From Henricia sp. BOLD:AAB3569 (lineage: Eukaryota > Echinodermata > Asteroidea > Spinulosida > Echinasteridae): DNA of 64,000 nt. Positions 13,829 through 36,567 of the stretch are shown one piece after another (positions within the stretch are counted from its first letter, which is position 1; every line of letters starts with the position of its first letter). The stretch is from positions 434,001-498,000 of the forward strand of contig JBBELK010000539.1 in the NCBI GenBank assembly GCA_037783545.1. The letters run 5' to 3'. The notes under the pieces were generated by a model. That model searched no databases, was not told where the DNA came from, and saw only the letters and a program-made list of their open reading frames with translations. Position numbers and translations under genes: made by a program.

Positions 13829-16800
13829 GGGTAGAATGGGGTAACTGGGACACTTAAGCATGTATTTGGTTGCAGTTTGTAGACAATAAGCTTTATTTAT
13901 CAAATGAAAGGTTTTGTTGAATTACTAACACCTCTTGAACATATTTTGATCATATTTGTTTCCAAACAAGCATGTTGTGGGGAAGGAGGCGGCAAAACAT
14001 GACGACCTGTGTTTGTCCCACTTACCCCGACACAATGGGGTAAATGGGACACCTAAATGGGGTAAGTGGGACGCACATAAAACACATGTAAACATATGGG
14101 TGTCAGCACCACAAACGCATGGCATTGCATTTGTTTAATCTGAATCATTAACTTGATCTTCTTTCACTATTCATTATTCATATTTAAGAAAAACAGGTCT
14201 TAAATTCTATTTGATACTGTTTCAAACGCGCTTAATTAGGTTCATCGTCTTTGCATTTCGCACATGCAAATTCGGTCAGTTCATTTGTTCGGCCGAACAG
14301 TCCAGTACATGATTCATGAAACCATTCCTCGCACTTGATGCATTGCCACCAGTCTTCTTTGTCCAAGTTGTCATCGTCTCCATAAAAACCACCACAATGT
14401 CCGCAGTAGTTTTCGGCGATATCGCGATCTACGTTTTCAGGAGTAGCGCGAGTGTTTTTTGTGTCCTTTTTTTTCTGTTTCTCCTGCTGAGCCGCTTCTC
14501 TGTTGCGTTTCTTTTCCTGTTGTCGCTGCTGCATTTCTAGTTTCTCCTGTTCTCGCTGTTCCCTCTTCTTCTCGCGCTCCACCTTCCGAGCCTCTTTAGC
14601 TGCAGCTTCTGCGTCTTTCTTGTTTTGTTTAGCCAGTTCGATATTGAAAACCTCATCGGAGGTGAGGCATCGCGCTTCTGTGACACGGCTAGATTTTTTG
14701 CCAGATTTGATGGTTTTGCTAACTACTGGCTTCTTGAGGACTGCTACAAATTTGTTGTTATCGCCGATTAGTGTAGCAGATATAGGGGAGACTGCGTTTG
14801 ATGTGCTGGGTCCTGGTTCGATGTCCATAGGCTCAGGCTCTGGCTCGGGCTCGGTCTCGGGCTGTGATGGAATGGTTACCTCTTCCTGAACGGATGGTGG
14901 ATCCGGTACCTCTGGGTTGGCATGGACGTCAGCAATGACTTCGATGATGACAGGCATAGACACGGTTGCTTCATCGTCTTGTGCAGGCTCGTCATCCTCA
15001 TATGTCAGCTCTGTTTCCACAGAAGAGAACTGAAGGTGCTCTGGGGTGATAGCCAGTGGATTAAAGGGGTAAATCCCTGTTGACTTGAAACCACTGATGA
15101 TGTTGGCCATTGTGAAAACATTATGATAGACATCAGCAAAAAGACCACTGAAGTCGTAGCGTGTGATTATGCGGTTTGGATTGTCGCGCATAAACTTGTC
15201 GCATCGCTGGTTGTAGGCACACTTCACCGACTTGAAAACTGACTTGTCAAGTGGCTGTGTGTGGTTCGTTGTGTGGGGTGGCAAACAGTACATGTGAACT
15301 GAGTTCTCACGAGCCAACTTCAGGGTAGAGATGCTGATGTGAGAACCGTGCCCATCAAGTACTAGTAGGACAGGGCGTACCTGTGGAATGGATGGCAGGA
15401 ACAGCTTCTTGAACCACGTCTCAAAAAGCTCTGCGTCAATGAAGCTAGACTTGCTAGTGCCGAAGAGTGTGCCTGGTGGCGCATTAGCTGTCAGACCGGG
15501 ATTGATGCGCTGACCCTTGAAGATAATGAAGGGAGGCAGTGTACTCCCTTGCGCATTGGCACATATTAGGACGGTCACATTCTCTCCGCGTTCTCCACTG
15601 GTTCTCGACTGCACTGTTTTTTTACCTTTCGTTGCGACAATGCTTGATGGTTTGTGGACCAAACTCAAACCTGTTTCATCAAGGTTGTATATCTGACCTG
15701 GGCAGGATTTGAGATCGGCACTGTCCATGACATCTCCGAGCTTCTTGAAGTGATCGCCGATAGTAGTTGGGTTCAGCATCGAGGCTCGTGCAGCAGACAG
15801 GGCTTCCGGTTTTCTCAGGGACAGGTCAGGGTGGCGTCTCATGAACCCTTCATACCAGTCATACCCCGCACTCTTGTTGATGTGATTGAAGCGGTGCTTC
15901 ATTCCGGCATGCTCCGCCATCTCGTAAGCAAGCTTGCAGACAGCTTTAACTCCAATGCCGAAACCTTGGCTCTCCAACTCTTTGATGTGGCGCACTAGTT
16001 GGCCCTCGTCGCCCATAGTGAAGACGGGTGGCCGGCTTGCCGGTGAAGGACTCCCCATTCCCTTGCTTATCCTTCTTGACAGCGTCGATTTCGGAACACC
16101 ATACTGCTTGGCGGCCTCTCGAACCCCAAGTCTGCCGTCAGTTACAGCCTTATAAGCATCAACCATTGCTTCTGCCTTCCATTTGCCTTGCTGAGGTGTC
16201 CACGTTTTCTTTTTGCGTGCCATAGGTGATCTGTAAAAATATAAATAAACAATACAAACACTGTTATTGTTATGAAGTCAATAATAAATTACTGTAAAAT
16301 TTACTTCACATGTACAATGTGGACATTGTTTTGAGAATATCTTAGTTGCATCTCAAAATAAAACAGATTTATGATCATGCTCTGTGAAAAATTGCGTGTC
16401 CCGCTTACCCCATTTACGCATGTCCCACTTACCCCGCTCCGATTGTGTAAAATTACTTCATTGCAGTATAATTTATCATTTGTATAAATGGTTAATTATT
16501 CCCATTCTATGGATGGCAATTTAAAAATAATAACCAATCCTAGAACCTGACACACTTTATTCTACTCATCTGTTTACACAATGACCCAAACAACATGACC
16601 AAAAATGCAACATGTGTGCTCACCTTATAAAATCAAAATGGCCACCATTGCGATGTGCAAGCCAAAATTATTCCAACAATTTCATCTTTTTTTACCTCCT
16701 ACAAACATTTCAAATTGATACAAATGCTTTGTAATATATGTAATTTGAAGACTTCTTGTGTTCCTATATTTTTTTCATGGTTCTATTGATGATTTTAAAT

Positions 16801-19504: not shown

Positions 19505-20671
19505 TCACGATCCAGATCTATCTATACTCGTTTGACTTTCCTTTTTGCGCATTTTCTTTTCGTCTTTTGCAAATATTTCGTTGACCGTCAACTCCATATC
19601 TGCTTGGTGAGGTCCCTTCCAGCGGATGTAGCGAGCCTTCTTCGCCTCCTCAAAACTCTCCATGGGGTCCGGCAGCGTATGGACGGTCCTTAGACTGCCG
19701 TCCGGGGCGTAGGTGTTCTGGTCAAACACCATGTTCATGGAGTGGGGTTCATTTGAGAGGTTCTTCTTGCGGGGTTTGGCCGCAGTGCCGAGATTGGACG
19801 CGGTGGAGGCAGTGCGGCCGGGTTGTTGTTGTTTATCCTGTGAGGCGGCCTCGCCACCCTGTACCGGTTTATCTTCCCCAACGAGTCTCTTAGTGATGGA
19901 CTCCTTGATGTTCTTCAGGTCGTAGTCGGAGAAAGAGTTCCTCCTCTTGTTGTCGGGGTTGGCAAGGTTTGTTCTTCCCGGAGGTGGTAAACTTGAGGAG
20001 GGGTCTGAGGTGGTGGTCATCCCGTCGTCGCTTCTAACGCTATGCTCTGTGGGACATCGCATCGCCGGCTCTCCCTGGCCCTCTCGGGGTTTTAACGCAC
20101 CGAAATCCTCACCGAATCTTTCCACTCTCGCCGAAAGCTCCTCTTGCTTCCTACTCAAGTTCTTTTTGTGCTCCAGCATCTGCTGCTCGCGAAGGTAATC
20201 CTCCCCAAACTCGTTGTGGCTGCTCCGGTAGCCATTCCGCGGAGTACGTGAGGTGCGGTTTCCTGGGTTGATGGCCGGGAGCTCGAGCGGTTGTCGACCG
20301 CGGCTAACCAGATCCAGAGACCCCTTGGGCTCGCCGCTGGCTCCGGAAACAGGTGGTTGACCAACCGTCGATTGACCAACAGCAGGTGTGCGGAATGATC
20401 GGTTACCGCCGGCGGTCAGCGAGTCTCGGTTCAAACTGAGCTGTGTCAGCCTCGCGGTGTTATTGTTCATAACCTGCACCGGTTGACGCCTATTAAACAT
20501 TCTCTGTCCACGCCCCCTCATCCTCTCAAGTTCTTTCTGTAGTCGCATCTTCTCGTTCCGGATCGTCTGAAGATGCATCTTTTCCAGCCCTTGCTGGGCC
20601 TCCAAATCGGCGTCCAGGTGCCGACGAGCGAAGACGTTCCTCTGAAAAGCTTTGTCTTCTTTGTTACTCAT
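19505..20671 (-). CDS. Coiled-coil protein of unknown function, single exon
   Basis: An ATG at 20671 opens an uninterrupted 388-residue frame. It is strongly charged, with higher GC than its surroundings, as expected for real coding sequence. Residues 1-60 are helical and Arg/Glu-rich (RNEKMRLQKELERMRGRG). Residues 60-160 are low-complexity and Arg/Ser/Gly-rich. A second predicted coiled coil runs about 165-195 (EQQMLEHKKNLSRKQEELSA). A short block near 255-275 (DLKNIKESITKRL) and the C-terminal 60 residues (KARYIRWKGP, ELTVNEIFAKDEKKMRKKE) look like conserved islands. There is no signal peptide or membrane segment. I do not recognise the family; it vaguely resembles vertebrate coiled-coil-domain proteins, but I would not assign one. 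Upstream exons adding coding sequence cannot be excluded. Confidence 0.7.
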   Translation of the reverse strand: MSNKEDKAFQRNVFARRHLDADLEAQQGLEKMHLQTIRNEKMRLQKELERMRGRGQRMFNRRQPVQVMNNNTARLTQLSLNRDSLTAGGNRSFRTPAVGQSTVGQPPVSGASGEPKGSLDLVSRGRQPLELPAINPGNRTSRTPRNGYRSSHNEFGEDYLREQQMLEHKKNLSRKQEELSARVERFGEDFGALKPREGQGEPAMRCPTEHSVRSDDGMTTTSDPSSSLPPPGRTNLANPDNKRRNSFSDYDLKNIKESITKRLVGEDKPVQGGEAASQDKQQQPGRTASTASNLGTAAKPRKKNLSNEPHSMNMVFDQNTYAPDGSLRTVHTLPDPMESFEEAKKARYIRWKGPHQADMELTVNEIFAKDEKKMRKKESQTSIDRSGS

Positions 20672-22362: not shown

Positions 22363-22368
22363 TACATG
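22363..22368. repeat. Left target-site duplication (TACATG)
   Basis: TACATG abuts the first base of the left inverted arm. An identical TACATG (30525-30530) abuts the last base of the right arm. Six base pairs is the duplication length typical of Maverick/Polinton integration. Confidence 0.75.
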
Positions 22369-22415
22369 AGTAGTGTGTATAGTCTTAATGAGACACTTTA
22401 TGCTAATTTATTCAT

Positions 22416-22476
22416 AGGTCAAAGGTCACATGAATATTAATGAGGTCACAAGGTCACATGAATAGGGATGAGGTCA
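22416..22476. promoter_or_regulatory. Cluster of AGGTCA nuclear-receptor half-sites near the element end
   Basis: AGGTCA occurs at 22416, 22423, 22443, 22451 and 22471. The first pair is a direct repeat with one spacer base (DR1); the second pair has two (DR2). AGGTCA direct repeats are classical nuclear-receptor sites. The same cluster is mirrored at about 30417-30477. Function inferred from motif only. Confidence 0.5.
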
Positions 22477-22567
22477 CATGAATAGGGATGATGACTTATG
22501 AATAATGTATGTGTGATGCATAATGCATGAGGTATGTTTGAAATGGTCCAATAGAAGAGCGTGTACC

Positions 22568-22792
22568 TGAATATCTTGATGAGACAAAATATCGTTAGCC
22601 AATGGCGAGGCAGAGACCTGAATATCTTGATGAGACAAAATGTCGTGAGCCAATGGGGAATCAGAGCCTTGAATATCTTGATGAGACAAAATACCGTTAG
22701 CCAATGGCGAGTCAGAGACCTGAATATCTTGATGAGACAAAATGTGGTTAGCCAATGGTGAATCAGAGACCTGAATATCTTGATGAGACAAA
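22568..22792 (+). repeat. 51-bp tandem array with CCAAT boxes, about 4.5 copies (left arm)
   Basis: AATATCTTGATGAGACA starts at 22570, 22621, 22672, 22723 and 22774, exactly 51 bp apart. The first four units contain AGCCAATGG, a CCAAT box. Degenerate single copies follow at about 23264 and 23313, just before the TATA box of the PC4 gene, and the core TCTTAATGAGACA also sits 14 bp from the element's end. Likely an upstream promoter/enhancer array. Confidence 0.8.
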
Positions 22793-23348
22793 TAAAGAAA
22801 ATAAAGAAAAAACAAGTGTTCGGACCCTAAAGCTTGATGAGACAGATTATTCATGAGGTCATTGCGAAAATAAAGAAAAACATGCGTTTGGACCCTAAAG
22901 CCAATAGACCCGATTACGTCAATAAGATTCGAGCGCCCCCATTTGAAACGACCCCAATAGGAAGCGCTGCTGTAAAATATTTGTTAAATCCATTATTCGC
23001 GGATGTCCCGGAAAATGTGTACCGTTGTAATTACACACACCTATACACGCACACGCATACAATTTATATACACGCGACAACCTTGAAGTGTTTGGGGCGG
23101 AAGTTGCCAGTAATCAGGACCGTTATACATACAAGGCTGGTTTGAGGGACAGGTAATTAATTTCCTTTGGTGATAAGGACACGGGTGATAATATTGTGAG
23201 GAAACGTTTGTTTTTTTTAAATTCTTAGTAGCGTGATACAATGGAAATGCGGGTCGTGAACTGAATATCTTAATGAGACAAAGTGGCGTGAGCCAAAGGA
23301 AATGCGAAAGTGAATATCTTAATGAGACAAATATTCGGGGGGTGGAGG

Positions 23349-23355
23349 TATAAAT
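23349..23355 (+). promoter_or_regulatory. TATA box of the PC4-domain gene (left copy)
   Basis: TATAAAT, 78 bp before the ATG at 23433, leaving room for a roughly 50-nt leader. Its mirror serves the right-arm copy at 29538-29544. The position supports choosing the 23433 ATG over upstream in-frame codons. Confidence 0.65.
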
Positions 23356-23432
23356 TGTGTCGAGAATCGTGTATTTGGCATTTCACTTCCTACTTACAAT
23401 CTGCGAATACAAGAGATTCAAGATCATTCAAG

Positions 23433-24362
23433 ATGTCGGCGTCTGGATTCTACACACCTGCCACATACTCCTACGACGCTGCGGGTATCCGCAACGAGAT
23501 GCGTGAATACGTGCCGGGTGCACCCAAGTGTATGGCCAAAGTCACCCCCGACCGGTTGCGTCGGCTCGAGCAACGCATGATTAGTCACGACTTCGACGGT
23601 CCGAACGCTACACCGAGAAAGCGTCGGCGCGTGGAGCTGGCAGACTGCACGCCATCTGCAAGATTCGAACTTACCAGTGTGCGGCACGCCGTCGTCGAGC
23701 CATTCAGGGGTGAGATCTACATCAAGATACGGGAATTCGTGCAGAGAAAGGACAAGGACTTTTGGTCTAGTCCGCGGGGCATCAATCTCCGCGTACACGA
23801 ATGGAGAAAGCTCGTAGAGATGGAACCGGATATCAGCAAGGCTGTGGCTGAAATGACGCAGCAACAACAACAACAACAATGTCCCGAGGACCCCGCACTG
23901 GTGGCCGTTGAGGAGGGCGAGCTAGTCATCGACGAACAACGGCAACAGGAAAGACGCGATGACGCAGATTTGACCGCCGTCCGGGGTGCAGAGAACAAAG
24001 ATGTTGCCTTCAACATGATTCAATCCATCATCGTGCCGGTCATCTTGAGCAAGGTCGAGGAAATCTGCAAGAAAAACTGTTTTGGGTGTGATCTGCCTCC
24101 GGAAGACGACTTAACGCAAATTAATCACGAATGCATGATGTGGACATTGGGAGAGAAAGTGGAACATTACTTCTATCGCGCCGTGAAGGAGTTTCCGTTG
24201 GGAGATTGTAGGCGGGAGTGGAATATTATGGCCGCCAATAACAAACAAATATCTGATTTTTACCCCACTATTCTGGACACGAACGAATTGTTTACAGATT
24301 ACGTCAAACGTCACATCTTGAAGGACAGATCGATGCTTTTTGACGTTTGTCATTCTTTTTAA
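23433..24362 (+). CDS. PC4/SUB1-domain protein encoded in the left arm
   Basis: 309 residues from the ATG at 23433. The frame stays open upstream into the repeat array, but the TATA box at 23349 makes this ATG the likely start. Residues 61-66 are a basic patch (PRKRRR), a probable nuclear signal. Residues 76-140 resemble the PC4/SUB1 single-strand DNA-binding fold: FRGEIYIKIREF, then SPRGINLRVHEWRKL, aligning with the strand and helix pattern of human PC4. Residues 143-149 are a glutamine run. Residues 190-235 hold a Cys/His cluster (C212, C216, C219, H232, C234), possibly metal-binding. The C-terminal 75 residues are unrecognised. A polyadenylation signal AATAAA follows at 24415-24420. PC4-type proteins act in transcription and bind single-stranded DNA; a role in element transcription or replication is inferred. 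Confidence 0.8.
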   Translation: MSASGFYTPATYSYDAAGIRNEMREYVPGAPKCMAKVTPDRLRRLEQRMISHDFDGPNATPRKRRRVELADCTPSARFELTSVRHAVVEPFRGEIYIKIREFVQRKDKDFWSSPRGINLRVHEWRKLVEMEPDISKAVAEMTQQQQQQQCPEDPALVAVEEGELVIDEQRQQERRDDADLTAVRGAENKDVAFNMIQSIIVPVILSKVEEICKKNCFGCDLPPEDDLTQINHECMMWTLGEKVEHYFYRAVKEFPLGDCRREWNIMAANNKQISDFYPTILDTNELFTDYVKRHILKDRSMLFDVCHSF

Positions 24363-24912
24363 ATAACGATTTTAATAGTATGAATAATGTTTGTGTGTCG
24401 TTTTTTTTTCATCAAATAAATATTACTTTGGTAGTTGTGCACGTAATGTAAAGAGAAAAAAAAAGTACTTTAAAAAACTTATAAAACTTTATAAAACTTA
24501 GTCTTAGAATTGCACATGTGGTTTTAAATCAAACCATTTGAATCGTTTTGCAAACAACTGCATCCTTGTAGAAGAAAAAAAAAAGTAATGGGAATTTTTA
24601 AAGGGTATTAAATTGTTTGTAAAAAAAAATAAATATTAAAAATATAAAACTTGTTATACACGGTAGTTCGGAACCAAAGAAATTAAATGTTTAACTTCAA
24701 ACTTTAAAAAAAAAAAAAAATGTGTTTGTGTAGTCATTTTGCGTTTTAAAAAATAAATAAATAAATAAATAAAAAATTGATAAATAGCGCATCGCTATAT
24801 ACACGGTATTGCAGTACCAGCCTCTATAACGCGTTGGGACAAGTCATACTGGCGAGGCCTTGAACATACTGTGGGCCGGGCTTTGTTTGGGGTTGTGAGG
24901 GTCGAAACACAC

Positions 24913-25010
24913 TGACGTCATAACGAGGAGTCAGCACAAACGGTCGACGTGATAGTGCTTGTTCTCCAATGGCGCTATATTTGAAAGCACTAACCCTGCT
25001 ATTTCAGCTT
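24913..25010 (+). promoter_or_regulatory. Promoter-like block (CRE, CCAAT, TATA) without an obvious gene
   Basis: TGACGTCA (24913-24920), CCAAT (about 24966) and CTATATTTGAAAG (about 24975) follow each other with the spacing of a compact core promoter. The only downstream frame is a short hydrophobic one with no recognisable features. Mirrored in the right arm near 27880-27980. Confidence 0.4.
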
Positions 25011-25737
25011 CATTTTTGGAGTAGCATTCGTTGGATCAACAGCGCCAATACGTTTATTCCTTCATTTCAGCTCAACGCAGTATACAACATTTTTCCAGAA
25101 ATACTGCGGCAACTTAGCACATCGACGCCGAGAAGGAATTACATGGTCAATTTGTTTGTTAATTCCATTGTGTTTTCCATATAAGATGTTTGCCACATTA
25201 ATACTGTAGGCTCCTATATCATGTTTATTTGGTGTATCGGGCAGATTATTGCTCCTGTGTGGCCCTACCGAACAAAGAAACCGTCCTTGGAGCGCGAAAA
25301 TTAAATCGCTGTCAACACCATAAATGCTGTAGATTGGTATGATAAAATAAGTTTACTAACAGCATGCATAGTTATGTTTGAAGTCTTACATGAGTTTATT
25401 TGTACATGTTGTATCTTCTTTTCATTTTGAAATTAATAGTTGCAATTACATAAACAAAACAAATTGTGGTTGATTTAATCAATAAATATTTACGATCGAT
25501 CAAAAGTAAATACTCCCGACACACAATATATCAATCTATAGCATAATATAATCCTGAATGGGCTGTTCGGTGTTACCCTTATTGATAATGGATTGCTGGA
25601 GGAGTGCCTACCAGAGGTAACTATTTTTTATAATAATTCCTTTTCTACCAAAGGCACTTGAGTTATGTTATTTTAAAATAACAATTTCTTTCTGAAACTA
25701 TACTAGTTTTTAATCACCACCGCGCGTTCCTCATGGT

Positions 25738-26421
25738 CTACCTATGTTGGAACAGTCCGTTAAATTCGGCCTGGTGTTTGGGCATTACTCTGTTCAAGGC
25801 TTTGTTTACTTCCATGCCTTTATTTACTTTTTCTTCGAGCTCTTCCACAATCTCTTGATGAGTATCATTGTCTTTCAGATATAGGTAACTTGACAAGAAA
25901 TCCTTGTAGTTATTAAAAAAGATTCTCTCGACTGCCCAGATGGTCTTCCTGTTGGCTTTTTCCTTGGCTTGATCTTCACCCATACCCTCGCTGACATACT
26001 TTTCATATTTTTCACTCCACATGTCTCCAGTGGATTCTTTGGCTTCTTCCAACCAGTCTCGATAGGCGACATTGTCTTCCAATTCAGAATCAGACTCATC
26101 CGATGATTTGTCATCTTTTTCTGTTTCAGATTCCGATTCATCTTCCTCAACATCTTCGTCATCAGCCTGCGTAGAGTCAGTTCCACAGCTTTCTATTTCC
26201 GAATCTTCAAATCTACGCCTTTTAAAATCGGTTTCATAATTTTCCATGTCCGAATATTCAGATTGAATAGGTTCAATTTCCCGATCATCGTCAACTCTGT
26301 CCGTTTGAGATTCATCTTCAGCATGTACATTCTCTGCATGCCGCCGTAGATTATATTTCCGCTCAAAGCTTTTGTCACACTGGTGGCAAGCATGGGGTTT
26401 GATTGCAGAAGCAGTATTCAT
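25738..26421 (-). CDS. C2H2 zinc-finger protein with acidic middle, complete copy
   Basis: 227 residues from the ATG at 26421. One C2H2 finger lies at 12-33 (C12, C15, H28, H33; spacing C-X2-C-X12-H-X4-H). Residues 36-125 are extremely acidic (runs of Glu, Asp and Ser). Residues 126-227 form a helical, conserved-looking domain: YRDWLEEAKEST, WAVERIFFNNYKDF, ALNRVMPKHQAEFNGLF. The zinc finger and first half of the acidic region are encoded in the unique centre; the rest is in the left arm. A TATATATA sequence lies at 26474-26483, about 55 bp upstream. It is convergent with the PC4 gene of the same arm. Function unknown; an acidic DNA-binding regulator is the simplest guess. Confidence 0.8.
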   Translation of the reverse strand: MNTASAIKPHACHQCDKSFERKYNLRRHAENVHAEDESQTDRVDDDREIEPIQSEYSDMENYETDFKRRRFEDSEIESCGTDSTQADDEDVEEDESESETEKDDKSSDESDSELEDNVAYRDWLEEAKESTGDMWSEKYEKYVSEGMGEDQAKEKANRKTIWAVERIFFNNYKDFLSSYLYLKDNDTHQEIVEELEEKVNKGMEVNKALNRVMPKHQAEFNGLFQHR

Positions 26422-26473
26422 GTTGAATCTTTGAAGGTCGATCTCCGAATGGCAAAAATCGGATTAAATCGTT

Positions 26474-26483
26474 AATATATATA
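26474..26483 (-). promoter_or_regulatory. TATA-like box of the zinc-finger gene
   Basis: TATATATATT on the minus strand, 53-62 bp before the ATG at 26421. It is in the unique centre, so only the complete gene copy owns this promoter. Confidence 0.5.
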
Positions 26484-26564
26484 ACTACTCATTATGCTTA
26501 TACCTCTGGTTTTTGTGCTCATTATGAACATATATATTCCCTGCTGTCTATAACGTCCGTGTTT

Positions 26565-26784
26565 ACTCATTTTCGCTGCTCATTTGCTCACTTCGCTGCT
26601 CATTTGCTCACTTCGCTGCTCATTTGCTCATTTCGCTGCTCATGTTCGCTGCTCATTTGCTCATTTTGCTCACTTTCGCTGCTCATTTTACTCATTTTGC
26701 TCACTTCGCTGCTCATTTGCTCACTTCGCTGCTCATTTGCTCATTTCGCTGCTCATTTTGCTCACGTTCGCTGCTCATTTGCTC
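26565..26784 (+). repeat. Tandem repeat of about 20 bp in the unique centre
   Basis: Roughly ten variable copies of TTCGCTGCTCATTTGCTCAC. The array stops exactly where the right inverted arm begins (26785). The last repeat's ...CTCAT overlaps the ATCATCGG start of the arm, so the junction may have formed by short-homology joining. Confidence 0.85.
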
Positions 26785-27154
26785 ATCATCGGATGAGTCT
26801 GATTCTGAATTGGAAGACAATGTCGCCTATCGAGACTGGTTGGAAGAAGCCAAAGAATCCACTGGAGACATGTGGAGTGAAAAATATGAAAAGTATGTCA
26901 GCGAGGGTATGGGTGAAGATCAAGCCAAGGAAAAAGCCAACAGGAAGACCATCTGGGCAGTCGAGAGAATCTTTTTTAATAACTACAAGGATTTCTTGTC
27001 AAGTTACCTATATCTGAAAGACAATGATACTCATCAAGAGATTGTGGAAGAGCTCGAAGAAAAAGTAAATAAAGGCATGGAAGTAAACAAAGCCTTGAAC
27101 AGAGTAATGCCCAAACACCAGGCCGAATTTAACGGACTGTTCCAACATAGGTAG
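26785..27154 (+). pseudogene. Beheaded second copy of the zinc-finger gene
   Basis: Encodes the residues matching 107-227 of the complete copy (from SSDESDSELEDN to the stop at 27152-27154), with no zinc finger and no promoter. The frame is open upstream through the tandem repeats, which would add a hydrophobic Leu/Ala/His-rich leader starting from an ATG at 26642. That fused product is possible but unsupported. Confidence 0.75.
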
Positions 27155-28530
27155 ACCATGAGGAACGCGCGGTGGTGATTAAAAACTAGTATAGTTTCAG
27201 AAAGAAATTGTTATTTTAAAATAACATAACTCAAGTGCCTTTGGTAGAAAAGGAATTATTATAAAAAATAGTTACCTCTGGTAGGCACTCCTCCAGCAAT
27301 CCATTATCAATAAGGGTAACACCGAACAGCCCATTCAGGATTATATTATGCTATAGATTGATATATTGTGTGTCGGGAGTATTTACTTTTGATCGATCGT
27401 AAATATTTATTGATTAAATCAACCACAATTTGTTTTGTTTATGTAATTGCAACTATTAATTTCAAAATGAAAAGAAGATACAACATGTACAAATAAACTC
27501 ATGTAAGACTTCAAACATAACTATGCATGCTGTTAGTAAACTTATTTTATCATACCAATCTACAGCATTTATGGTGTTGACAGCGATTTAATTTTCGCGC
27601 TCCAAGGACGGTTTCTTTGTTCGGTAGGGCCACACAGGAGCAATAATCTGCCCGATACACCAAATAAACATGATATAGGAGCCTACAGTATTAATGTGGC
27701 AAACATCTTATATGGAAAACACAATGGAATTAACAAACAAATTGACCATGTAATTCCTTCTCGGCGTCGATGTGCTAAGTTGCCGCAGTATTTCTGGAAA
27801 AATGTTGTATACTGCGTTGAGCTGAAATGAAGGAATAAACGTATTGGCGCTGTTGATCCAACGAATGCTACTCCAAAAATGAAGCTGAAATAGCAGGGTT
27901 AGTGCTTTCAAATATAGCGCCATTGGAGAACAAGCACTATCACGTCGACCGTTTGTGCTGACTCCTCGTTATGACGTCAGTGTGTTTCGACCCTCACAAC
28001 CCCAAACAAAGCCCGGCCCACAGTATGTTCAAGGCCTCGCCAGTATGACTTGTCCCAACGCGTTATAGAGGCTGGTACTGCAATACCGTGTATATAGCGA
28101 TGCGCTATTTATCAATTTTTTATTTATTTATTTATTTATTTTTTAAAACGCAAAATGACTACACAAACACATTTTTTTTTTTTTTTTAAAGTTTGAAGTT
28201 AAACATTTAATTTCTTTGGTTCCGAACTACCGTGTATAACAAGTTTTATATTTTTAATATTTATTTTTTTTTACAAACAATTTAATACCCTTTAAAAATT
28301 CCCATTACTTTTTTTTTTCTTCTACAAGGATGCAGTTGTTTGCAAAACGATTCAAGTGGTTTGATTTAAAACCACATGTGCAATTCTAAGACTAAGTTTT
28401 ATAAAGTTTTATAAGTTTTTTAAAGTACTTTTTTTTTCTCTTTACATTACGTGCACAACTACCAAAGTAATATTTATTTGATGAAAAAAAAACGACACAC
28501 AAACATTATTCATACTATTAAAATCGTTAT

Positions 28531-29460
28531 TTAAAAAGAATGACAAACGTCAAAAAGCATCGATCTGTCCTTCAAGATGTGACGTTTGACGTAATCTGTA
28601 AACAATTCGTTCGTGTCCAGAATAGTGGGGTAAAAATCAGATATTTGTTTGTTATTGGCGGCCATAATATTCCACTCCCGCCTACAATCTCCCAACGGAA
28701 ACTCCTTCACGGCGCGATAGAAGTAATGTTCCACTTTCTCTCCCAATGTCCACATCATGCATTCGTGATTAATTTGCGTTAAGTCGTCTTCCGGAGGCAG
28801 ATCACACCCAAAACAGTTTTTCTTGCAGATTTCCTCGACCTTGCTCAAGATGACCGGCACGATGATGGATTGAATCATGTTGAAGGCAACATCTTTGTTC
28901 TCTGCACCCCGGACGGCGGTCAAATCTGCGTCATCGCGTCTTTCCTGTTGCCGTTGTTCGTCGATGACTAGCTCGCCCTCCTCAACGGCCACCAGTGCGG
29001 GGTCCTCGGGACATTGTTGTTGTTGTTGTTGCTGCGTCATTTCAGCCACAGCCTTGCTGATATCCGGTTCCATCTCTACGAGCTTTCTCCATTCGTGTAC
29101 GCGGAGATTGATGCCCCGCGGACTAGACCAAAAGTCCTTGTCCTTTCTCTGCACGAATTCCCGTATCTTGATGTAGATCTCACCCCTGAATGGCTCGACG
29201 ACGGCGTGCCGCACACTGGTAAGTTCGAATCTTGCAGATGGCGTGCAGTCTGCCAGCTCCACGCGCCGACGCTTTCTCGGTGTAGCGTTCGGACCGTCGA
29301 AGTCGTGACTAATCATGCGTTGCTCGAGCCGACGCAACCGGTCGGGGGTGACTTTGGCCATACACTTGGGTGCACCCGGCACGTATTCACGCATCTCGTT
29401 GCGGATACCCGCAGCGTCGTAGGAGTATGTGGCAGGTGTGTAGAATCCAGACGCCGACAT
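28531..29460 (-). CDS. PC4/SUB1-domain protein encoded in the right arm
   Basis: 309 residues from the ATG at 29460. The translation is identical to the left-arm copy at 23433-24362, with the same TATA box (29538-29544), 51-bp array (30101-30325) and polyadenylation signal. Identical coding sequence in both arms means either a very young duplication or ongoing gene conversion between arms. Confidence 0.8.
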   Translation of the reverse strand: MSASGFYTPATYSYDAAGIRNEMREYVPGAPKCMAKVTPDRLRRLEQRMISHDFDGPNATPRKRRRVELADCTPSARFELTSVRHAVVEPFRGEIYIKIREFVQRKDKDFWSSPRGINLRVHEWRKLVEMEPDISKAVAEMTQQQQQQQCPEDPALVAVEEGELVIDEQRQQERRDDADLTAVRGAENKDVAFNMIQSIIVPVILSKVEEICKKNCFGCDLPPEDDLTQINHECMMWTLGEKVEHYFYRAVKEFPLGDCRREWNIMAANNKQISDFYPTILDTNELFTDYVKRHILKDRSMLFDVCHSF

Positions 29461-30100
29461 CTTGAATGATCTTGAATCTCTTGTATTCGCAGATTGTAAG
29501 TAGGAAGTGAAATGCCAAATACACGATTCTCGACACAATTTATACCTCCACCCCCCGAATATTTGTCTCATTAAGATATTCACTTTCGCATTTCCTTTGG
29601 CTCACGCCACTTTGTCTCATTAAGATATTCAGTTCACGACCCGCATTTCCATTGTATCACGCTACTAAGAATTTAAAAAAAACAAACGTTTCCTCACAAT
29701 ATTATCACCCGTGTCCTTATCACCAAAGGAAATTAATTACCTGTCCCTCAAACCAGCCTTGTATGTATAACGGTCCTGATTACTGGCAACTTCCGCCCCA
29801 AACACTTCAAGGTTGTCGCGTGTATATAAATTGTATGCGTGTGCGTGTATAGGTGTGTGTAATTACAACGGTACACATTTTCCGGGACATCCGCGAATAA
29901 TGGATTTAACAAATATTTTACAGCAGCGCTTCCTATTGGGGTCGTTTCAAATGGGGGCGCTCGAATCTTATTGACGTAATCGGGTCTATTGGCTTTAGGG
30001 TCCAAACGCATGTTTTTCTTTATTTTCGCAATGACCTCATGAATAATCTGTCTCATCAAGCTTTAGGGTCCGAACACTTGTTTTTTCTTTATTTTCTTTA

Positions 30101-30325
30101 TTTGTCTCATCAAGATATTCAGGTCTCTGATTCACCATTGGCTAACCACATTTTGTCTCATCAAGATATTCAGGTCTCTGACTCGCCATTGGCTAACGGT
30201 ATTTTGTCTCATCAAGATATTCAAGGCTCTGATTCCCCATTGGCTCACGACATTTTGTCTCATCAAGATATTCAGGTCTCTGCCTCGCCATTGGCTAACG
30301 ATATTTTGTCTCATCAAGATATTCA
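30101..30325 (-). repeat. 51-bp tandem array with CCAAT boxes (right arm)
   Basis: Mirror of 22568-22792, upstream of the right-arm PC4 gene. The copy number and the variant order of units are the same as in the left arm. Confidence 0.8.
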
Positions 30326-30524
30326 GGTACACGCTCTTCTATTGGACCATTTCAAACATACCTCATGCATTATGCATCACACATACATTATTCATAAGTC
30401 ATCATCCCTATTCATGTGACCTCATCCCTATTCATGTGACCTTGTGACCTCATTAATATTCATGTGACCTTTGACCTATGAATAAATTAGCATAAAGTGT
30501 CTCATTAAGACTATACACACTACT

Positions 30525-34275: not shown

Positions 34276-35265
34276 GCGTGTGAAATGACGTCTGACGCCA
34301 TTCATACGAAACAACGCAAAAGGCTAAATAGACTGATTGATCATTTCCCATAGAATCGTGTGTAATTTCAAGATATAGCCATTGGATTTGGCTGCACGGC
34401 CTTTCATAAATCATTTTAATTAGCAGGATATAATTTACACGCAACTCGCATTGTTTAATAGTTAAACGTTTTCCCTTCAATTACCATCAATAGACACCTG
34501 TTTTTAATAATAAAATCTCATTTTAGTGTGTTGAACGAGGCCGAGGGTAGAGCTCTGCTTATGGATTTCATTTATATCGAAGAACACAATGAATCAAATT
34601 TCGTTTACCAATTCCGCTCTGTTTTCTCGAAACGGAAATTACGTCACGTTTAGGACCAACCCATGACTGCCCACAACCGGCAAACCATGTCCTGACATGC
34701 GCAGTCTTGGACCATTATGCTCCGAAGGTCCGCGGAAGGTCTTATTTCCTGTATCACTTTGGCTGCATAATGCATGCAGGACGTGTAACACATACAGTAT
34801 GGGAGTAGCTCCCACAATCTCAACAGCTGTTGTGCGCATTGAAACAACACAAACTCAGCCGTTCGAAATCGAAAGAAGGAACTGAAAGGATTAAATTTAT
34901 TTTCTGAAATTTGTACTGCGTCAACAACAGATTTGTCGTACATCACTACAGAGGATCAAGAGAAACGAACACGGGGCGTAACTGAAGTTGATGAAATTAT
35001 CGTCTTTAAGACGCGAGTACGACCGGCCGTCTGCGGTGTGTTCCATGCATGTGACCTTACGGTTAGCAGTGGCACTTTGATGAATCCGTGGCTGTTGATT
35101 TGTCTGCACGTGTCGCAGCGATTGCAGCACACACAGTATGGTCTCCGAATGTGACCTTATACGTGCATAGTCTGCGTCTAATTTAGCTGGTGAATATTCT
35201 GTTTTCTCGTCTCGCGTCTCCGTTCGACATCAGGCGTGGCCAGATATTTTGTTTGTGCCGACAAA

Positions 35266-36567
35266 ATGGGTGGACACCACGGCAAATTCAAACGCAACAG
35301 TCGTATGACCACACCGACTTTTAACGGTCAACCGTCTGAGGTGGTCTATAGCAAGAGCATGGATACGTGTAGTCTCAAGCTCTACCGAGTGGAAGGGACG
35401 AACGGCGGGAGGGAAGAGCTGGTGGTTCTTCTTGACTGCGGAGGCAGGGTCTACGCCAACGGTAGACGCGTTTATCCTTTTGATTCCACAAACCCTAGCG
35501 TGGAGGGATACGGCGATGCTGCCGGCTTCCCAGGTACCTACAAGATGGCTGGTGATCTGGATAAATGCCTCAACTCTGAGGCCAACGGTATGTGTACGAT
35601 GGATGGTGTGCTTTCTCTCATCTCGCAGACCTTTGAGCAGCTCTTGAAGGACGGCATCAGACTGCAGGACGGTCTGCGTACCATGGAGGAGGAGAACACG
35701 GCCCTGTCTCTTAAGGTCCTGGAGATGAAGAGAGAGCAACTTCAGATGCAGAGGCTTGAACTCGAGAAGCAAAAACTGGAACTGCGCATCGAGGAACTGG
35801 AGTCCGATCAGAACTGTTTGCGTGTTTCTGGATTGCAGGTTCCGCTACAGCAGAGGCGTCTAGCCACTCTGGCTAGAACGAACTCAATCGGTCTGGGTGA
35901 TATCAACGGCATTGCGCGGTACAGCTCCTTACCGAGACGAGCCGAATCCCTAACCCGAGTCAACATGGAGAACCACGGCCTCACCAACGGCTGTGACCTG
36001 CCGAACAGCCATAAAGAGAACGGGCATTGTAACAACTCCGATCTCAAGGAATCCCTTCACAGAAAGATGTCAGCTGATAGCTATCGAGACTTAGAGAGCA
36101 GAAGATCGGAGCTAGCTCAAGACAGCGCCGTGATTAATTTCCAGATGGAGAGTTTGAGCCGCGAACACGAGCACGCTAAAGTAGGCATGGTGCGAGCCAG
36201 CACTCTGACCAGGAACCGAAGGATCAGCGGCGGACCTACCCCATCAGACGGGACGGTCATCGGCTTCAAGTCCAAGACAGTATCGCCATCTCTCTACCAG
36301 AGCATGGAGCGACTCAACATGGAGATAGAGCCCAATACGAAGCAAGGCAACGGCCCCTGGGATCGCTACGACACCATCAGACGCAGATATGACGCTCTAC
36401 GACAGAAGAGGATGGAGCGGATTCGGAAGTATTCCTCGCAGGAGAACGTCACCAGGACTCCGTCGCGATCCCGTCGGTCTAACGATCGTCAGTCGATCAC
36501 GAGCGACGACGATTCGTCCAATAATAGCAGGGATAGTCCCCCACCGCACCAACTTAATTTTGAGTAA
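35266..36567 (+). CDS. Coiled-coil protein of unknown function, possibly N-myristoylated, single exon
   Basis: 433 residues from the ATG at 35266 (AAAATGGG context). The start MGGHHGKFKRNSR has Gly2 and a following basic patch, compatible with N-myristoylation and membrane attachment. Residues 20-110 may be a small globular domain (CSLKLYRVEG, ELVVLLDCGGRVYANGRRVYPF). A strong coiled coil covers about 135-185 (EENTALSLKVLEMKREQLQM and onward). Residues 190-433 are low-complexity, with repeated Arg-Ser-rich, possibly phosphorylated motifs (RRAESL, RRISGG, RTPSRSRRS) and an acidic Ser-rich tail. Coding GC is above the surrounding DNA. AATAAA at 36921-36926 is a likely polyadenylation signal. 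I do not recognise the family. A 5' non-coding exon is possible. Confidence 0.75.
   Translation: MGGHHGKFKRNSRMTTPTFNGQPSEVVYSKSMDTCSLKLYRVEGTNGGREELVVLLDCGGRVYANGRRVYPFDSTNPSVEGYGDAAGFPGTYKMAGDLDKCLNSEANGMCTMDGVLSLISQTFEQLLKDGIRLQDGLRTMEEENTALSLKVLEMKREQLQMQRLELEKQKLELRIEELESDQNCLRVSGLQVPLQQRRLATLARTNSIGLGDINGIARYSSLPRRAESLTRVNMENHGLTNGCDLPNSHKENGHCNNSDLKESLHRKMSADSYRDLESRRSELAQDSAVINFQMESLSREHEHAKVGMVRASTLTRNRRISGGPTPSDGTVIGFKSKTVSPSLYQSMERLNMEIEPNTKQGNGPWDRYDTIRRRYDALRQKRMERIRKYSSQENVTRTPSRSRRSNDRQSITSDDDSSNNSRDSPPPHQLNFE

Follow-up and report, generated by a model that had tools for sequence, protein, structure and literature searches.

What kind of mobile element could consist almost wholly of two inverted arms, with genes lying inside those arms? 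The question is posed by an 8156-bp insertion at positions 22369-30524 of a 64,000-nucleotide stretch of the genome of the sea star Henricia sp. BOLD:AAB3569 (assembly GCA_037783545.1, contig JBBELK010000539.1, positions 434,001 to 498,000; this whole stretch is the window). We consider it likely that the insertion belongs to a family of non-autonomous, gene-bearing palindromic satellites of Polinton/Maverick elements, which would be mobilized in trans by Polintons. An initial annotation of the locus had read it as such a satellite, and this reading is supported by ends held in common with Polintons of the same genome, by 6-bp target-site duplications and by the lack of core Polinton genes. 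Loci of the host genome (740.7 Mb in 2104 contigs) carry C numbers below, the window being C539; two that are needed from the outset are C70 (C70:1515323-1531077, 15.7 kb), an apparently full-length Polinton, and C679, an internally deleted relative of it.

The insertion is made up of two inverted arms of 3739 and 3740 nucleotides around a 677-nucleotide centre. The arms pair without gaps or mismatches in two blocks (22369-24720 with 28173-30524, 2352 nucleotides, 100%; 24703-26107 with 26785-28189, 1405 nucleotides, 100%), which overlap at the sole difference between them, a poly-A tract one base longer in one arm. This palindrome is far above chance expectation, and the annotated structure, in which about 92% of 8.16 kb was two near-identical 3.74-kb inverted arms, was borne out with exact coordinates (arms 91.7%). 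The termini read AGTAGTGTG.../...CACACTACT, and the parts of the element are as follows.

22363..22368, no strand: left target-site duplication TACATG, from the sequence
22369..26107, plus strand: left arm of the palindrome, from inverted-repeat comparison
22369..23228, plus strand: left helper-type terminal segment (C70-type Polinton end, holding 51-nucleotide repeats), from its match to the C70 ends
23350..24799, plus strand: left Polinton-derived PC4 segment, from its match to C679
24835..26421, minus strand: left satellite core, with the zinc-finger gene and the region downstream of it, common in whole or part to the palindromic copies read
26108..26784, no strand: non-palindromic centre, what remains after its right half was deleted, from comparison with C121
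26566..26785, no strand: central tandem repeats with a unit of about 20 nucleotides (TTCGCTGCTCATTTGCTCAC), upstream of the zinc-finger gene, from a repeat search
26785..30524, minus strand: right arm of the palindrome, from inverted-repeat comparison
29665..30524, minus strand: right helper-type terminal segment, mirror of the left segment
30525..30530, no strand: right target-site duplication TACATG, from the sequence

Compared with a 9257-bp sister element, C121, the centre of the window element lacks one 943-bp block and, in smaller gaps, a further 160 bp or so. In C121, repeats of the 20-nucleotide type are present to the left and to the right of the centre. Because this block is missing relative to C121, while C121 and another copy, C229, have both zinc-finger copies complete, the asymmetric centre of the window element is secondary. 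The genes of the element are these.

23433..24362, plus strand: PC4-like gene, left copy, 309 amino acids, from the open reading frame and Pfam PF02229
25738..26421, minus strand: zinc-finger gene, complete copy, 227 amino acids (one C2H2 finger, acidic linker, C-terminal helical domain), from the open reading frame, Pfam and structure prediction
26785..27154, plus strand: zinc-finger gene, right copy, truncated at its 5' end (codons 106-227), from a search with the zinc-finger gene
28531..29460, minus strand: PC4-like gene, right copy, 309 amino acids, from the open reading frame and the identity of the arms

The PC4-like protein matches Pfam PF02229 (E 2.7e-8), and its named matches are in Patiria miniata (48%) and Acanthaster planci, as would suit an echinoderm host. 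The single C2H2 finger of the other protein scores just under the Pfam cut-off. The complete zinc-finger gene extends with its 5' part into the centre; the right copy lost codons 1-105 with the sequence that is missing relative to C121. Thus the annotated pair of intact accessory-type genes inside the arms holds for the PC4-like gene, which is complete in both, and fails for the zinc-finger gene, which is complete only once. The core Polinton genes, said to be absent from the element, are indeed so by tblastn with the C70 proteins: among these queries the PC4-like gene alone matched in the window, with no match to polymerase B or integrase at E 1e-5 and none to capsid, protease or packaging ATPase.

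Which elements, then, might supply the missing functions? The annotation had proposed searching the genome for a full-length Polinton with the same ends, and C70 appears to be such an element, its left end being 97.7% identical to the window arm over 524 bp. C70 has, above the Pfam cut-off, an rve integrase with a chromodomain and a DNA_pol_B_2 polymerase whose frame extends to the edge of the stretch read; an adenain-like protease and an A32-like ATPase score below the cut-off, and C70 also has a PC4 gene. Two further frames, of 445 and 282 amino acids, have no Pfam match, and from their position and size we take them to be the major and minor capsid proteins. In the deleted C679 (L016, 722-9188) the 813-bp terminal repeats are identical, the order of the genes is altered, and next to the left end lies a second PC4 start, which is truncated. 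Another lineage is represented by a decayed Polinton, C861:1022022-1037214, whose integrase, polymerase, ATPase and capsid-like pieces are 30-61% identical to the C70 proteins. Terminal repeats of the local Polintons compared measure about 0.4-0.8 kb (about 0.5 in C70, 0.8 in C679, patchy over 0.5 in C861), so that long arms are not usual in this set. No zinc-finger core turned up in the Polinton sequence examined (C70, C679, C861 and the retrieved parts of C425 and C109). For the window element an apparently full-length Polinton with shared ends was identified, C70; for other copies the Polintons identified were the deleted or decayed C679 and C861.

The host genome was searched with 601 bases of the end, with the zinc-finger gene (best 40 of 110 candidates scored) and with the core of a divergent copy (best 40 of 127 scored), so that the locus counts given here are lower bounds. 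The searches yielded at least 22 loci with the core or the zinc-finger gene as a close inverted pair, and one more added by reading (C798) raises this to at least 23. Palindromes were found at 15 of the 18 core loci whose DNA was read, namely the window, C121, C229, C998/C351, C498, C201, C1010, C1, C387, C168, C1960, C272, C361, C798 and one of two loci at C408; the other inverted-pair loci are C1202, C109, C482 (second copy partial), C1275, the second at C408, C450, C457 and C666. Other copies with the same termini, for which the annotation had asked, do exist, and more than one contig shows the arrangement. C998 and C351 represent a single locus that is present twice in the assembly (99.9% identity over 9334 bp including flanks). 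Outside the 18 loci read, matches were one-sided at C229:1369233, C201:1448484, C1347, C1035, C218 and C99, and paired 17.8 kb apart at C706. Across the family, satellites are 6.1-9.5 kb long with arms of 2.8-4.8 kb, and the constant part is the zinc-finger core, a gene pair diverging from the central repeats.

A 6-bp target-site duplication belongs to the definition of Polintons/Mavericks, and perfect 6-bp duplications were present at all nine palindromic loci where both ends were identified. Their sequences all differ: TACATG at the window, GGCGTG at C168, and ATTAGT, TAGGCC, GTCGTA, ACCGTG, CCCGGC, CATATA and GCTGCT among C121, C229, C998/C351, C498, C201, C1010 and C1. At the other six palindromic loci an end was interrupted, not found or outside the stretch. 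Flanks, compared for eight of the nine loci, were different, and the copies represent several independent insertions. Perfect 6-bp duplications also border C70 (AACGCT), C679 (GGAGCA) and C130 (GGTGGG), and no clean one was seen at C861. C498 (L015) and C679 (L016) were inserted in tandem-repeat arrays, and in each the flanks on the two sides mostly share 97-99% identity.

The arms themselves are mosaic. Counting from the terminus, positions 1-524 of the window arm match the left end of C70 as given above, and the right end of C70 aligns with positions 1-373 (95%) and 248-860 (93%). Positions 982-2136 are 97.9% identical to the PC4 region of C679 and just 74% identical to that of C70, positions 2127-2431 are 90% identical to C679, and from about 2432-2467 inward to the centre lies the zinc-finger core common to other satellites. 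To judge from these matches, the PC4 gene of the window is helper-derived and came with the terminal segment of a helper. C998 has window-type ends without the PC4 segment, the ends abutting the core directly. C1960 (L030, 327-740 and 6019-6432) has a different PC4-like gene of 137 amino acids in both arms (PF02229, E 1.2e-13), and PC4 genes were therefore probably acquired with helper segments more than once; extra zinc-finger fragments lie farther out in C1960. The arms of C1960, C272, C869 and C798 contain a protease-like remnant. In C408 (L038, 918-1400), probe bases of about 270-483 proved to be a high-copy repeat inside the arm, with 2747 first-look candidates (best 40 scored).

End types vary across the family. 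C679-type ends (90-97% identical) occur on C498, C201, C1010 (97%) and C1; the ends of C168 match C861 (75-92%) and do not align with those of the window; and C408/C40 and C869 start with other AGTAGT ends. C498 has a core that shares 98.8% identity with that of the window over 1647 bp and groups with the cores of the window, C998, C1010, C121 and C229 (support 96/96), yet its ends are of the C679 type, so that ends and core have had different histories. Judged by these alignments, one core rides on the ends of at least two Polinton lineages, with the same end type on both arms, and satellites appear to change helpers by swapping ends. The annotation had not recognized this exchange of ends, the constancy of the zinc-finger core or the helper origin of the PC4 gene.

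How are the two arms kept alike? Within elements, divergence between the arms is 0.05-0.67% over 1.95 kb (13 rows from 12 loci; the window, 7.2% with its truncated right gene misplaced, and the rearranged C130, 34%, were dropped), against 0.3-36.8% between loci, where the high values include unrelated outer sequence. Sites that differ between elements, with the two arms of each element in agreement, outnumber one-armed sites by 26 to 9 among the window, C121 and C229 (3349 sites), by 83 to 10 between C498 and C1010 (2204 sites) and by 58 to 6 between C1 and C201 (2848 sites), and no one-armed difference was common to two loci in these three alignment sets. A larger and worse alignment of four elements including C998 gave two one-armed sites common to the window and C998, and 109 private one-arm sites in the window; we take these to reflect the deleted, misaligned centre of the window and do not use them as evidence. 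In a tree the two arms of an element were sisters in nine of 10 elements, C1010 giving no resolution (support from 84/77 upward, or identical rows). The haplotigs C998 and C351, whose 9334-bp stretches differ at seven positions, have 14 arm differences in common; since both keep these differences, the arms at this locus have not been continuously converted in the chromosome. Such data fit a scheme in which one arm serves as the template of the other, before insertion or at that step.

The zinc-finger frame has a length of 225-235 amino acids in 26 of 28 arms (the truncated right copy of the window and the broken left copy of C130 were dropped beforehand, and C998 and C351 are one locus). The ratio of nonsynonymous to synonymous substitution rates (dN/dS) of the window gene is 0.25-0.45 against C168, C1960, C272, C361 and C130; across the copies compared, the ratio is below 0.65 in 58 of 66 pairs. 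The gene is mostly under purifying selection, and is the satellite's own rather than a helper gene. Its C-terminal domain is predicted to form four helices, with no recognizable fold match. In complete copies the two zinc-finger genes point away from the central 20-nucleotide-unit repeats, which may form their control region; perhaps, as a guess, the protein acts on these repeats or on helper expression.

Polintons encode a protein-primed polymerase and a retroviral-type integrase, according to an excerpt of PMC6431247. For a satellite with borrowed ends, these ends would serve as replication origin and integration ends: the polymerase of the helper would start there, its integrase would insert the product, and its capsid might package it. 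A displaced single strand of the palindrome would fold into a hairpin with a double-stranded end, and copying round the hairpin loop would regenerate two identical arms. Such fold-back copying during replication, which we think probable on the pattern of arm differences, would explain the identical arms, the capture of one end type on both arms and the repeated pick-up of PC4 genes; one-armed differences private to a locus would be later mutations. The main rival to this account has the same satellite with arms homogenized after insertion by chromosomal gene conversion, as is known between the arms of large sex-chromosome palindromes, and needs no fold-back replication. It too yields near-identical arms and symmetric differences between loci, and counts to that extent against our reading, but it would require conversion up to the very terminus whenever both arms change end type, and at one locus, C998/C351, 14 arm differences have not been erased since before the haplotypes split. 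We therefore regard conversion as an unlikely, if serious, competitor. It seems to us improbable that these elements arose from Polintons by internal deletion and enlargement of the inverted repeats, as decay products resembling miniature inverted-repeat transposable elements (MITEs), with genes as passengers without a role: the terminal segments and PC4 gene are Polinton-derived, C679 is an internally deleted Polinton and a protease-like remnant persists in four copies, but none of the Polinton stretches examined yielded the core, which is common to elements with unrelated ends and has kept its frame while its surroundings diverged.

Could the palindrome be an artefact instead? Long palindromes are a known type of assembly error, in which a read is joined to its own reverse complement; here, however, the two flanks differ, the 6-bp duplications are perfect, in other copies the arms show slight differences, the same architecture recurs at other loci, and the palindromic locus C998/C351 was assembled twice with haplotigs that agree. 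An assembly join is very unlikely. Little credence can likewise be given to a DNA transposon of the foldback type that would encode an unseen transposase of its own and resemble Polintons at the ends only; its long, internally repetitive inverted repeats would resemble Foldback and Galileo as described in excerpts of PMC3573991 and PMC3688188, but the ends are 97-98% identical to those of integrase-encoding Polintons and the duplications are of 6 bp. Several observations do weigh against a Polinton satellite with a palindromic way of life. No Polinton was identified for the end types of C408/C40 and C869. C869 (L035) and C40 (L037) consist of a single arm ending within the central repeats, C869 having no matching duplication at the break, and they may be products of palindrome instability or half-copies. 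At C130 the core has been rearranged by other insertions. The dN/dS ratio exceeds 0.65 in eight of 66 pairs (including C1-C498, 0.98, and C1960-C130, 1.23), no relative of the zinc-finger protein was confirmed in IMG/VR, and the family is known here from genomic DNA alone.

Seen beside known systems, the family shares with Polintons/Mavericks (adintoviruses or polintoviruses) the AGTAGT-starting ends, the 6-bp duplications, and a terminal segment and PC4-like gene in common with local copies. It differs from them in lacking genes for polymerase, integrase, ATPase and protease as well as any capsid match, in arms of 2.8-4.8 kb against terminal repeats of about 0.4-0.8 kb, and in a length of 6.1-9.5 kb against about 15-16 kb; it thus has the ends and duplications of autonomous Polintons and lacks their core genes. 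Non-autonomous Polinton derivatives in repeat libraries keep the helper ends and lack the machinery, but the satellite is palindromic, has a conserved gene of its own and draws its ends from several Polinton lineages. Virophages, transpovirons and phage satellites depend on a larger element and share ends or signals with it, as the satellite would; unlike these, it is palindromic, resides in an animal genome and gave no capsid or replication gene with Polinton-protein queries. We know of no conserved gene pair in Foldback arms. Foldback, Galileo and Tetris have similarly very long, internally repetitive inverted repeats, but the satellite has Polinton-type ends and duplications and falls outside Foldback as usually defined. 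Copy-back defective viral genomes are inverted duplications from a strand copied back on itself, as the satellite may be; the satellite, however, forms a family present at many loci, carries a gene under selection and is not a transient by-product. Open-access literature searches returned no description of such palindromic Polinton satellites.

Some features lie outside this account. A 22-kb element at C130:1143993-1165966 (L020-L022) has Polinton-type ends, a perfect 6-bp duplication and a rearranged zinc-finger core, along with frames resembling retroelement genes by eye. Elsewhere in the window, an intact 663-amino-acid frame (14232-16223, minus strand; DDE_1, HTH_psq and a weak PHD finger) is presumably a pogo/Tigger-type transposase; a 388-amino-acid frame (19505-20671, minus strand) that matches coiled-coil protein 190 below the threshold is perhaps a host exon; and a 443-amino-acid open frame (35236-36567, plus strand) in a GC-richer stretch has no Pfam match.

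Tentatively, these satellites may form a long-lived palindromic lineage parasitizing Polintons, in which the palindrome would be a replication strategy, each displaced strand folding into a hairpin with a ready double-stranded origin so that the satellite outpaces its helper, symmetric end capture would allow a switch of helper, and the zinc-finger protein would adapt or control the helper; we put this forward as a possibility that we would not yet favour. Public assemblies contain relatives of the zinc-finger protein (85 at E ≤0.01, the last five weak; one in Patiria miniata, one in a Tara ocean set and most unnamed), which could point to a wide distribution of such satellites. Where arms differ between copies and not within them, they would provide a natural record of the mode of replication, and the swapping of ends hints at which Polinton might act as helper for which satellite, making helper dependence testable from genome data. 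Satellites of animal Polintons would show that virus-like elements carry parasites of their own, as giant viruses carry virophages.

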